From contig NZ_CAHJXN010000001.1 in the NCBI RefSeq assembly GCF_903645285.1, positions 350,001-414,000 of the forward strand: a stretch of 64,000 nt of DNA, in the 5' to 3' direction. Every line of letters starts with the position of its first letter. Position 1 is the first letter of the stretch. Positions 15,198-61,629 of the stretch are shown here, piece by piece. This stretch comes from Streptococcus thalassemiae. Lineage in GTDB: Bacteria > Bacillota > Bacilli > Lactobacillales > Streptococcaceae. The notes under the pieces were generated by a model that saw nothing but the letters and a program-made list of their open reading frames with translations, had not been told where the DNA came from and did no database searches. The translations under genes were made by a program, and so were the position numbers.

Positions 15198-15304
15198 CTG
15201 TAATACCTCTTTTTCTTTCTATATGAAAATGATAACGCAAACATTCACTTTTTTCAAGTTTTTTGCTTATAGATGAAGAAATCACTGAAATACTTTCTAA
15301 CTAA

Positions 15305-15543
15305 TACTCTTCGAAAATCTCTTCAAACCGCGTCAACGTCTCCTTGCCGTAGATATGGTTACTGACTTCGTCAGTTTCATCCGCAACCTCAAAACGGTGT
15401 TTTGAGCTGACTTCGTCAGTTCTATCCACAACCTCAAAAACATGTTTTGAGCTGACTTCGTCAGTCTTATCTACAACCTCAAAGCAGTACTTTGAGCAAC
15501 CTGCGGCTAGTTTCCTAGTTTGCTCTTTGATTTTCATTGAGTA
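15305..15543 (+). repeat. BOX element with three boxB copies (AB3C)
   Basis: About 239 bp: boxA from 15305, three copies of the 45-bp boxB (each starting CTGACTTCGTCAGT and containing AACCTCAAA...TTTGAG), then boxC ending GAGTA at 15543. It lies between holA and sodA. Because 45 is a multiple of three, the minus strand reads through as an 84-codon open frame with repeated FEVVD-x-TDEVSS-like units; this is a by-product of the repeat, not a supported gene. Confidence 0.92.
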
Positions 15544-15616
15544 TAAAACAAGCAAATCAGCAAGAAACCCACGACAAGATAATCCTGACGCGGGTTAAAA
15601 AGTTTTTCAAAAAATA

Positions 15617-18073: not shown

Positions 18074-19264
18074 TTATTTGACTGCTTCTTTTAAAGCATC
18101 TACCTTGTCCAAACGTTCCCATGGAAGATCAATATCTGTACGTCCCATGTGTCCATAAGCTGCTGTTTGACGGTAGATTGGACGTTTAAGATCCAACATT
18201 TGGATAATTCCTGCAGGGCGAAGGTCAAAGATTTGACGGGCTGCTTTTTCAAGCTTGCTTTCAGCTACTGTTCCTGTACCAAAGGTATCGATACGAACAG
18301 AGACAGGCTGGGCAACACCGATAGCGTAGGCCAACTGCACTTCTGCCTTCTTAGCAAGGCCTGCTGCAACAATATTCTTGGCAATATAACGAGCTGCATA
18401 TGACGCAGAACGGTCCACCTTAGTCGCATCCTTACCAGAGAAGGCACCACCACCGTGACGAGAGTAGCCACCATAGGTATCCACGATAATCTTACGACCA
18501 GTCAAGCCTGAGTCTCCTTGAGGTCCACCGATTACAAAGCGACCAGTTGGATTGATGAAGAATTTTGTTTGCTCATCCAAGTACGAGGCTGGAATAACCT
18601 CTTTGATAACCTTGTTAATGACATCATTGTGAATTTGTTCGTTGCTGACTTCTGGATCGTGCTGAGTTGAAATAACGACTGTGTCCACACGTACTGGACG
18701 GTCATTTTCATCATACTCAACTGTAACTTGTGATTTAGCATCTGGGCGAAGATAGCTGATTTCCCCAGATTTACGAAGATCTGCTAAACGACGAACTAAC
18801 TTGTGGCTGAGTGAAATTGGCAATGGCATGAGCTCTTCTGTTTCATCCACAGCAAATCCAAACATGAGCCCTTGGTCTCCAGCACCAATCAAGTCCAGCG
18901 GATCTTGATCTGCATTTCCACGGACCTCCAAGGCTTCGTTAACACCTTGGGCAATGTCTGGTGACTGCTCAACAAGTGACGGATGGACTCCCACCGTCTC
19001 AGCAGAAAAACCATACTCTGTATTGGTGTAGCCAATTTCTGCAATGGTATCACGAACCACACGGTTAATATCCACATAGGCATTTGTAGAAATTTCACCA
19101 AAAACGTGGACAGATCCAGTATAGACAGCTGTCTCAGCAGCAACGTGAGCTTCTGGATCCTCTGCTAAAATAGCATCCAAAATCGCATCTGAAATTTGGT
19201 CTGCAATCTTATCCGGATGCCCTTCAGATACAGATTCAGACGTGAATAATTTACGTTCTGACAT
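18074..19264 (-). CDS. metK: S-adenosylmethionine synthetase
   Basis: A 396-residue methionine adenosyltransferase. Motifs include [16 protein letters not shown] (ATP site), [12 protein letters not shown], and the P-loop-like [17 protein letters not shown]. It makes SAM from methionine and ATP. An exceptionally G-rich ribosome site, AAGGGGGGAC, lies 6-7 bases before the ATG. That site is the last piece of an SMK (SAM-III) riboswitch, so translation should drop when SAM is plentiful. The gene is a single-gene transcript. Confidence 0.98.
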
Positions 19265-19270
19265 AAAAAT

Positions 19271-19638
19271 GTCCCCCCTTAAAAATAGTGTTATAGAGTT
19301 ACAAAGTACTGGTAGGTATTTCCATTATCTAAGAGTTACGACGCGAAAGAAATAAAAACGATACTTTTTTATTTCTGAAGCTAGTAAGGTGCATAGGGTG
19401 ACCGCATTATAGCGGCAACCGTAGAATGACGCACGACTTTGGAGCTGTCAGTCTTTGCGAGTTACGACGCGAAAGAAATAAAAACAATACTTTTTTATTT
19501 CTGAAACTAGTAAGGCGCATAGGGTGACTGCCTTATAGCGGCAACCGTAGAATGACGAGCGACTACTTTGTAGCTATCAGTCTTTGCGAGTTACGACGCG
19601 TAAGAAAAAATAGAAATACCTACCATCTTATCGGGACT
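19271..19638 (-). promoter_or_regulatory. SMK box (SAM-III) riboswitch of metK, split by a large insert
   Basis: Read on the minus strand: GUCCCGAUAAGAUGG (ending near 19623), then after the insert CCAGUACUUUGUAACUC, then GGGGGGAC. This matches the SMK order (UUCCC, GAUGG hairpin CCAG, CUUUGUAAC, GGGGGA), in which the ribosome site pairs with the 5' strand when SAM binds. GUCCC pairs with GGGAC to form P1. The internal hairpin is a perfect 12-bp helix (19311-19322 with 19613-19624), but its loop is a 290-nt insert. Promoter element TATAAT lies at 19652-19657, so the RNA starts almost at P1. Confidence 0.85.
19323..19612 (-). repeat. 290-nt insert with 2.2 copies of a ~127-bp repeat
   Basis: GAGTTACGACGCG begins at 19333, 19459 and 19588, giving units of 126 and 129 bp and a short third copy. 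Each unit holds AGAAATAAAAA and TTTTTATTTCT arms (a strong hairpin) and the segments GCATAGGGTGAC and TAGCGGCAACCGTAGAATGACG. It has no reading frame of note and is not a BOX element. It sits entirely in the loop of the SMK hairpin. Confidence 0.8.
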
Positions 19639-19651
19639 ATATAACTTTATC

Positions 19652-52195: not shown

Positions 52196-52210
52196 AAAGA
52201 AAAAAAGAAA

Positions 52211-52300
52211 ACAACCACTAGGGGTGCGTAAAGCTGAGATTAACGACTGTTAGATCCCTCTGACTCAATCTAGGTAATGCTAGCTGATGGAAGTGGAAAT
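52211..52300 (+). promoter_or_regulatory. TPP riboswitch of thiD
   Basis: GGGGTGC, GCTGAGAT, GATCCCT and CTAGGTAATGCTAGC...TGGAAGTGG are the conserved order of the thi-box. It lies about 90 bases before the thiD start; the downstream region shows no clear terminator, so translation control may be used. Confidence 0.88.
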
Positions 52301-52391
52301 GATAATGGGGACTAGCAGTCTTCTATTACCTTTCTAAAACAGACCAGCTTGTTCTTGAGAATACAAACTTCAGTTGGTTGGGAGGTTTTAG

Positions 52392-58768: not shown

Positions 58769-58814
58769 AGCTTACAAGATTAGACCGTTCTTTTCGACAT
58801 ACGAAAAAAACATT

Positions 58815-58889
58815 TCACATTTCCCTTCGCCAGTATTAACTGTATCAGGTTCAATGGGTATCATCTCAGCCTAAAGCACCCCAAATGTC
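58815..58889 (-). promoter_or_regulatory. TPP riboswitch of the ykoE operon
   Basis: On the minus strand: GGGGTGC, GGCTGAGAT, ACCC, GAACCTGAT and ACTGGCGAAGGGA, the complete thi-box order. A promoter precedes it: TTGAAC and TATAAT (58912-58917), 17 bases apart. Confidence 0.95.
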
Positions 58890-59008
58890 TTTATTATTTA
58901 ATTATGTGATTATTATAACACACATTTTATACTAGTTCAAGAAATTGAACCGGAAATACAGCCTTGCACTCACAAAGATAGCAGATCTTTCTTGGGTTAG
59001 ATCTATAT

Positions 59009-61391: not shown

Positions 61392-61437
61392 GACTTACAA
61401 GATTAGACCGTTCATTTCACCATACGAAAAAAACTGT

Positions 61438-61511
61438 TCACATTTCCCTTCGCCAGTCTTAACTGTATCAGGTTCAATGGGTATCATCTCAGCCTAAAGC
61501 ACCCCAAATGT
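61438..61511 (-). promoter_or_regulatory. TPP riboswitch of the tenA-thiM-thiE operon
   Basis: Contains GGGGTGC, GGCTGAGAT, ACCC, GAACCTGAT and ACTGGCGAAGGGA on the minus strand. Nearly identical to the ykoE riboswitch over aptamer and linker. A TGCTATACT extended -10 lies upstream at about 61535-61543. Confidence 0.95.
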
Positions 61512-61629
61512 CTTTATTATTTAATTACTGCATCAGTATAGCAAAAAATGAAAGCCCTAGCAAGATATTTGACCGAAAAATATCTTTATATAGTTTTTGA
61601 TAGCGATTTATTCTTCCAATACACGAAGA

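Follow-up and report, generated by a model that had tools for sequence, protein, structure and literature searches.

The ends of IS200/IS605-type insertion sequences and the attC sites of integrons are folded single-stranded DNA with conserved joints, variable stems and an internal tetranucleotide complementary to the flank. CGTC-tagged REP repeats have been assigned to five named phyla, and Firmicutes is not among them in the part of the source that was accessible (PMC3733652). In streptococci, the repeats BOX, RUP and SPRITE occur almost only in S. pneumoniae and S. mitis, BOX also having relatives in S. suis, and one BOX element of S. pneumoniae forms a composite with two T-box riboswitches, according to the available portion of the report (PMC3049150). 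The metK leader of Streptococcus thalassemiae, located in the 64-kb stretch of DNA analysed here (the window), carries a repeat array within what is likely an SMK (SAM-III) riboswitch, judging from its sequence. As far as the same partly accessible source describes BOX elements, they share with this repeat unit a modular, structured and interspersed character and the ability to merge with a riboswitch leader, whereas they differ in their build, compared by description, and in their reported near-absence outside S. pneumoniae and S. mitis (PMC3049150).

An earlier note on this DNA had described a minus-strand SMK core whose internal hairpin is a perfect 12-bp helix closing a 290-nt loop, and all of these parts were re-found where they had been placed (Table 1). 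As in the SAM-III class (RF01767), a 5′ half with the anti-Shine-Dalgarno sequence GTCCC is joined by a closing stem to a 3′ half with CTTTGTAAC before metK, whose Shine-Dalgarno sequence is complementary to the GTCCC. Unlike described members of this class, the window leader holds a 290-nt array in its hairpin loop, and with this insert present it gave no Rfam match to SAM-III or to any other family at gathering or relaxed thresholds. The metK gene itself shows 97–99% identity to the five nearest named Streptococcus loci. The loop contains two units, 93% alike across 106 nt and spaced by 126 and 129 nt, together with a 19-nt piece of the 3′ end of a third unit, so that the earlier count of 2.2 copies was a fair description. 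This remnant probably occupies the place of the first SMK 3′ half of many relatives. Both units matched the covariance model described below at E 4e-23, although both are among the 30 sequences from which the model was built. A 22-mer of the unit, with up to three mismatches allowed, had two matches in the window and none in 100 shuffles. The fold of the window leader had a z-score of −4.75, with no equally low value in 100 shuffles, and the closing helix was part of the predicted fold.

Table 1 Features of the metK leader in the window (positions counted from the first nucleotide of the window)
Feature	Position	Strand	Remark
SMK P1 5′ strand GTTATATAG	19637..19645	-	can pair with CTCTATAAC
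SMK 5′ half GTCCCGATAAGAT, with anti-Shine-Dalgarno GTCCC	19625..19637	-	
Loop-closing helix, 5′ arm GGTAGGTATTTC	19613..19624	-	
Remnant TATTTTTTCTTACGCGTCG, probably from a lost hairpin module (its right arm and its end)	19594..19612	-	reading inferred
Unit 1, three-way-junction (A) module	19508..19594	-	covariance-model match 19461-19594
Unit 1, hairpin (h) module, 43 nt	19465..19507	-	covariance model
Unit 2, three-way-junction (A) module	19382..19465	-	covariance-model match 19335-19465
Unit 2, hairpin (h) module, 43 nt	19339..19381	-	covariance model
GTAACTCTTAGATAATG, unit 2 terminal GTAAC and spacer before the 3′ arm	19323..19339	-	
Loop-closing helix, 3′ arm GAAATACCTACC	19311..19322	-	
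SMK 3′ half AGTACTTTGTAACTCTATAAC	19290..19310	-	its GTAAC is the motif where the units of relatives sit
metK Shine-Dalgarno GGGGGGAC	19271..19278	-	complementary to GTCCC
metK, S-adenosylmethionine synthetase, 396 aa	18074..19264	-	start at 19264

A separate transcription unit, which by the earlier note would have refuted its reading, has weak evidence against it: a consensus scan, which likewise missed the metK promoter, saw no promoter-like or terminator-like site on the minus strand of the insert. On the plus strand, the region had four promoter-like sites, two of them within the insert, with 1.6 expected, which is about the shuffle level. The same kind of scan gave no support for the hairpin module as an intrinsic terminator in the metK leader.

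A degenerate pattern of the SMK 5′ half was present in 282 of 284 Streptococcus genomes; some of these matches are due to chance, at a lower rate as judged by a reversed control. For the closing stem, 118 distinct metK leaders were compared, an uneven sample drawn from the unit search, from named metK relatives and from places with the SMK pattern in genomes G001-G112. Five of them were dropped, the core pattern not being found, and the remaining 113 gave 136 arm pairs, leaders with two halves contributing both of them. Each of the first five pairs was represented by several standard pair types, and hence the closing stem covaries across the genus, a point that the earlier note had proposed to check. 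Only these first five or so pairs of the 12-bp helix are the stem conserved in the genus, while its full length of 12 bp turned out to be peculiar to this lineage and a few relatives. In one leader (L279), the closing stem was absent from the expected place.

A scan of 15 metK-bearing loci with the Rfam SAM-III model (cut-off 45 bits) detected two Enterococcus leaders at 69 bits. Six of the eight unit-free streptococcal leaders (L039, L040, L044, L047, L191 and L219) matched at 29.6–39.7 bits, under the cut-off; the other two (L046 and L048) gave nothing, and nor did five unit-bearing leaders (L036, L037, L038, L041 and L042). A scan at the cut-off therefore overlooks streptococcal SAM-III leaders even when they are free of units. 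Elsewhere in the window, three TPP riboswitches scored over the Rfam cut-off (52210-52308, 58805-58893 and 61428-61516), and the minus strand carries a repetitive ORF of 84 aa (15301-15555) that looks like a putative BOX element.

An alignment of 30 units from metK leaders and from other places, from which the covariance model was made, revealed a single architecture, in which a three-way-junction module (ca. 83–86 nt) is followed by a hairpin module (41–43 nt), between GTAA and GTCGTAA. GTAA is followed by one strand of a short helix (P0), by hairpin P1 and by hairpin P2, an ACGG hairpin whose loop contains TAT; then come CCTA, the second strand of P0, CTTACTAG, a hairpin whose loop contains TATCG, and GTCGTAA. 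A script could parse 119 of the 150 units, and among these 81 A modules were 83–86 nt and 113 h modules 41–43 nt long. The 150 units (139 of them distinct), which were the best of 198 matches, were aligned by fitting to the model, which favours the structure; in this alignment, 92.6% of the cells were paired as compared to 31–43% with slid partners, and 37 of 40 pairs had changes on both sides. When the 30 units were aligned with MAFFT, 87.0% of the cells were paired and 32 of 40 pairs had changes on both sides, and RNAalifold recovered P0, P1 and P2 by itself. The covariation of the stems in these alignments indicates that the fold of the unit is genuine. The pairing of GTAA with TTAC involves conserved letters, so that no covariation is possible, and one of its four pairs was formed in only 65 of 132 units.

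The ends of the unit are direct repeats (GTAAC ... GTCGTAAC) and not the terminal inverted repeats of a MITE. Like REP palindromes tagged with GTAG or CGTC, many units have a hairpin module followed by CGTC, and REP elements are palindromes at the DNA level, but the unit differs in being a 126-nt structure of two modules with a three-way junction, in its head-to-tail arrays and in having no association with a Y1 transposase, as far as REP is described in the accessible part of the source (PMC3733652). A Y1 transposase (PF01797) was absent from the genome of the window, and in 45 genomes no association was seen, 15 of 25 element-rich genomes having the gene against 11 of 20 genomes without a unit match (10 of these 11 over the cut-off). 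The enzyme was therefore rejected as a dedicated mobiliser, and its lack of association sets the unit apart from IS200/IS605-derived and RAYT-type elements. The conserved joints, the variable stems and the internal tetranucleotide complementary to the flank nevertheless appear to liken the unit to IS200/IS605 ends and attC sites, from which it differs in this lack of a transposase association and in the absence of cassette genes from the arrays that were read.

The unit was detected in 257 of 284 Streptococcus genomes with the covariance model (E 0.01, strict filters); at most a dozen or so candidates were scored per genome and copy numbers are lower bounds. Because adjoining units share a few bases, the copies in an array are undercounted by the model search, from which only presence was taken. 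An order-wide sample of 246 genomes contained 31 positive genomes in two of 64 genera. The sole carrier outside Streptococcus (locus L390 in genome G422, from another family of the order) had a single copy at 1501-1633 with 51 bits, which is weaker but looks genuine by eye. BLAST with the insert found a match in 120 of the 284 genomes, many in metK leaders and many elsewhere. The earlier note had asked for the repeat elsewhere, and in the genome of the window itself the model matched 11 times, the weakest match having E 0.13. Four of these matches are at argS and two at metK; prfC, a lac-type PTS gene and carA have one each, another lies between metF and pnp, and a partial match is located between grpE and dnaK. 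BLAST of the insert against this genome gave no further convincing copy; such copies are missed since conservation lies mainly in the structure and a few motifs. The repeat unit thus does occur outside metK, while its description has to be corrected to a genus-wide family of two-module units.

Rfam 15 contained nothing matching the window units up to E 5, and the family had no match at the cut-off; no match reached the cut-off at 12 unit-rich loci either. Two sub-threshold candidates were set aside: S35, which scored 29.8 bits in L142 (cut-off 69) where it overlaps the end of a weak unit match, and which scored equally in L042 far from its unit, and SSRC8_2 in L153, which lies outside the unit. 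Phage and plasmid collections yielded no unit match at nucleotide-level sensitivity. No description of the family was found in the literature on SMK insertions, streptococcal repeats and the joint sequence, of which most subscription papers were outside reach, nor in the accessible parts of PMC3049150, PMC3733652 and PMC2267715.

Outside metK, 80 loci were drawn from the better-scoring matches, two of which (L280 and L318) duplicate L149 and L134 in position. In the set of the 150 best matches, the start of 58 out of 89 array segments (60 of 91 if the duplicates are included) fell on the stop codon of a same-strand ORF of at least 60 aa, and several of the remaining segments are inner parts of arrays split by the grouping. 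Recurrent sites were groEL, dnaK, grpE, obgE, argS, prfC, a corA-like gene, a parE-like gene, two unnamed genes with the C-terminal tails QGDVRFSEQF and GSNQCESCVI, and an intergenic site between pdh genes where the unit is antisense; the gene names were read from C-terminal residues or translations and not from database matches. Some arrays were antisense to their neighbours (pdh and pnp). On the tree of units, copies grouped by locus, with 22 label changes against a minimum of 13 and a shuffled mean of 107.8, a result to which near-copies contribute. Since the units cluster by locus, most copies would seem to be old residents and not recent jumps.

The 3′ end of argS, fetched from 30 of the 88 genomes searched, was used to follow the modules at one site. 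By eye, two loci (L388 and L389) had no array immediately after the argS stop codon, and 28 arrays could be parsed by script. In these, A modules (mostly 82–85 nt) or short modules of ca. 33 nt alternated with h modules, which were nearly all 42–44 nt long and had quite different stem sequences. The partners varied with the genome: A1 was followed by h1, h4, h7 or h9, A3 by h1, h3 or h5, and A4 by h1, h3, h4 or h5. The argS stop codon was TAA in 20 and TGA in eight of the 28 cases (L360-L387). All eight TGA cases carried A2 or the similar A15, and A2 occurred once after TAA (L383). Since the type of stop codon goes with the type of the adjoining module, these results suggest that the exchanged segment includes the stop codon. 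Much of this reassortment could be explained by unequal homologous recombination.

Of the 118 metK leaders, 59 contained a unit according to the covariance model; an earlier count by regular expression had missed some (51 of 118, with 22 changes on the tree). The unit followed a complete SMK core in 25 of these leaders, lay between two 3′ halves in 23 and lay only upstream of the 3′ half in 10, including the window, with one leader unclassified. An insert in the SMK hairpin loop, as reported in the earlier note, is hence true of the window but represents a minority arrangement. In some species the units started at the GTAAC of CTTTGTAAC, in others at another TAAC immediately downstream of it. 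Close relatives within the mitis group had 0, 1, 2, 3 or 4 copies, and the leaders of the sample ranged from 84 to 954 nt in length. On a tree of metK (up to 300 codons), presence and absence of the unit required 23 changes, 16 of which were forced by well supported branches, as compared to a shuffled mean of ca. 39.6; recombination between strains can inflate such numbers. The leader L226 keeps the 3′ end of a unit and has no unit, an apparent deletion scar. No empty site was seen with a near-identical filled counterpart and a clean junction, and the metK junctions that were compared contained extra duplicated or altered sequence. In the longest leader, L126 / L216 (954 nt), the model matched the array five times, and some of the matched units have a larger insertion within P2. 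The SMK loops of L250, L251, L252, L255, L256, L276 and L278 share another sequence, around a stretch like CTTGATATACTTCAGTATTATCTGCGATTTCGCTG, so that inserts of different kinds may be accommodated in this loop.

A C-to-U change in an RNA stem is retained as a G-U pair, and G.T combinations should therefore far exceed A.C combinations in the aligned DNA. In 36 pairs of the element stems, 73 G.T and 59 A.C combinations were counted beside 195 other mismatches and 4324 Watson-Crick pairs, so that these stems are not conserved through G-U pairs as those of a structured RNA would be. The four GTAA/TTAC pairs, excluded from the 36 and counted alone, gave seven G.T and 48 A.C. Thinning the units gave G.T:A.C ratios of 23:18 (49 units under 80% identity) and 10:13 (32 units under 70%), and the 24 pairs of RNAalifold in 30 units gave 15:14. 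In the SMK stem of the metK leaders (136 arm pairs), which was read by position and not by pairing, 111 G.T and only four A.C combinations were found with 548 Watson-Crick pairs and 17 others, or 41:4 in the 49 distinct arm pairs. The element and the SMK stem differed in the most cautious comparison as well (p = 0.0004). Controls gave 57:0 for SRP RNA (five variable pairs, 30 sequences) and 15:0 for tRNA (ten tRNAs from the fetched loci), in both cases with pairs picked by a program that favours pairing. TPP leaders did not serve as a control, RNAalifold giving only seven pairs (two G.T, no A.C) and the cmscan TPP alignments being uncounted. Given near-equal G.T and A.C counts in the element and 111:4 in the SMK stem, the fold of the array looks as if it is maintained as DNA. 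Stem variation by Watson-Crick pairs only would be expected of single-stranded or cruciform DNA, or of stems perfected by template switching. The suggestion that the repeat adds a second sensing function found no support, the stems of the unit varying unlike those of RNA.

On these grounds, we consider it probable (roughly 0.7) that the window contains a likely SMK leader with, in its loop, an array of a Streptococcus-wide repeat built from two interchangeable modules, which by our prediction acts as DNA and which the switch would tolerate. It is most likely that this modular repeat has repeatedly entered the metK leader at the TAAC of the SMK box itself. The unit would enter at TAA(C). In metK this target belongs to the conserved CTTTGTAAC in the 3′ half of the SMK box, and at other loci it is frequently a stop codon. 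The GTAA at the flank could pair with the internal TTAC of the unit, and it recurs at the 3′ end of the unit (GTCGTAA); because of this repetition, recombination between identical unit ends would allow an array to grow, shrink and leave scars. In the lineage of the window, a unit may first have been situated between two copies of the 3′ half, the proximal copy then being replaced by a unit end, which would have left the array in the loop. The array is presumably tolerated since the SMK halves still pair: the SMK stem would bring them together, GGGGGGAC could pair with GTCCC on SAM binding, and the switch is predicted to be functional. Selection or DNA repair would see single-stranded or cruciform DNA in the array and not the transcript.

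A function as RNA, in which the hairpins protect the transcript, set its decay or recruit a factor and provide a second layer of control in metK, appears unlikely. The strong fold conserved on one strand, the retention of the same loci across the genus, and a metK insert that is part of the leader and whose own strand showed neither promoter-like nor terminator-like sites would all be in keeping with it, as would the many sense arrays directly behind the stop codons of conserved genes, a position compatible with a role in mRNA. However, G.T is about as rare as A.C in these stems, in contrast to the three RNA controls, some arrays are antisense to neighbouring genes, and copy number in metK varies from none to four among mitis-group relatives. 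We are somewhat doubtful that the family is an old immobile repeat, inserted early and once per locus and then altered locally by duplication, deletion and conversion through homologous recombination, with loss and recombination between strains producing the pattern at metK. Such a history would fit the clustering of units by locus, the local variation of array size and the lack of nucleotide-level matches in phage and plasmid collections, but the metK units need five label changes on the unit tree (the starred branches force only one), units occupy two different TAAC points of the leader depending on the species, and the genome of the window has units at sites that do not recur in the sample, such as the lac-type PTS gene and carA.

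It is very unlikely that the riboswitch is dead and collects insertions free of selection. Leader length is indeed highly variable and other sequences occupy some loops, but the SMK pattern is nearly universal in the genus and pairing of the stem is kept, by means of compensatory changes and G-U pairs, in almost every one of the 113 leaders that were read (five others were dropped), L279 being an exception. The chance that the unit belongs to BOX, RUP or SPRITE is almost negligible: size, hairpins and intergenic position are similar, but these families are almost absent outside S. pneumoniae and S. mitis in the accessible text (PMC3049150), against 257 of 284 genomes for the unit, and, compared by description, RUP (ca. 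107 bp, inverted ends), SPRITE (an 18-bp duplex with a U-rich tract) and the boxA-B-C build are unlike a junction and a hairpin with direct-repeat ends. Returning to a DNA-level repeat tolerated by the switch, we tentatively extend this reading to a hitherto unrecognised cassette system of streptococci, which is possible at best. In such a system, a recombination activity on folded single-stranded DNA would reshuffle, add and remove hairpin and three-way-junction modules of near-constant length, joined at conserved ACTA and GTCGTAA sequences, where housekeeping genes end. The metK riboswitch, which has the target TAAC in its SAM aptamer, would for that reason be hit again and again.

These observations describe a structured modular repeat family that is present in about nine of ten Streptococcus genomes, that was not shown by Rfam or by the literature searched, and whose copies often sit on the stop codons of conserved genes such as groEL, dnaK and argS. 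The count of G.T against A.C provides a simple comparative test for telling repeats folded as DNA from those folded as RNA, applied here within one leader. The same switch with 0–4 inserts in close relatives constitutes a set of natural experiments on how much cargo a riboswitch tolerates.
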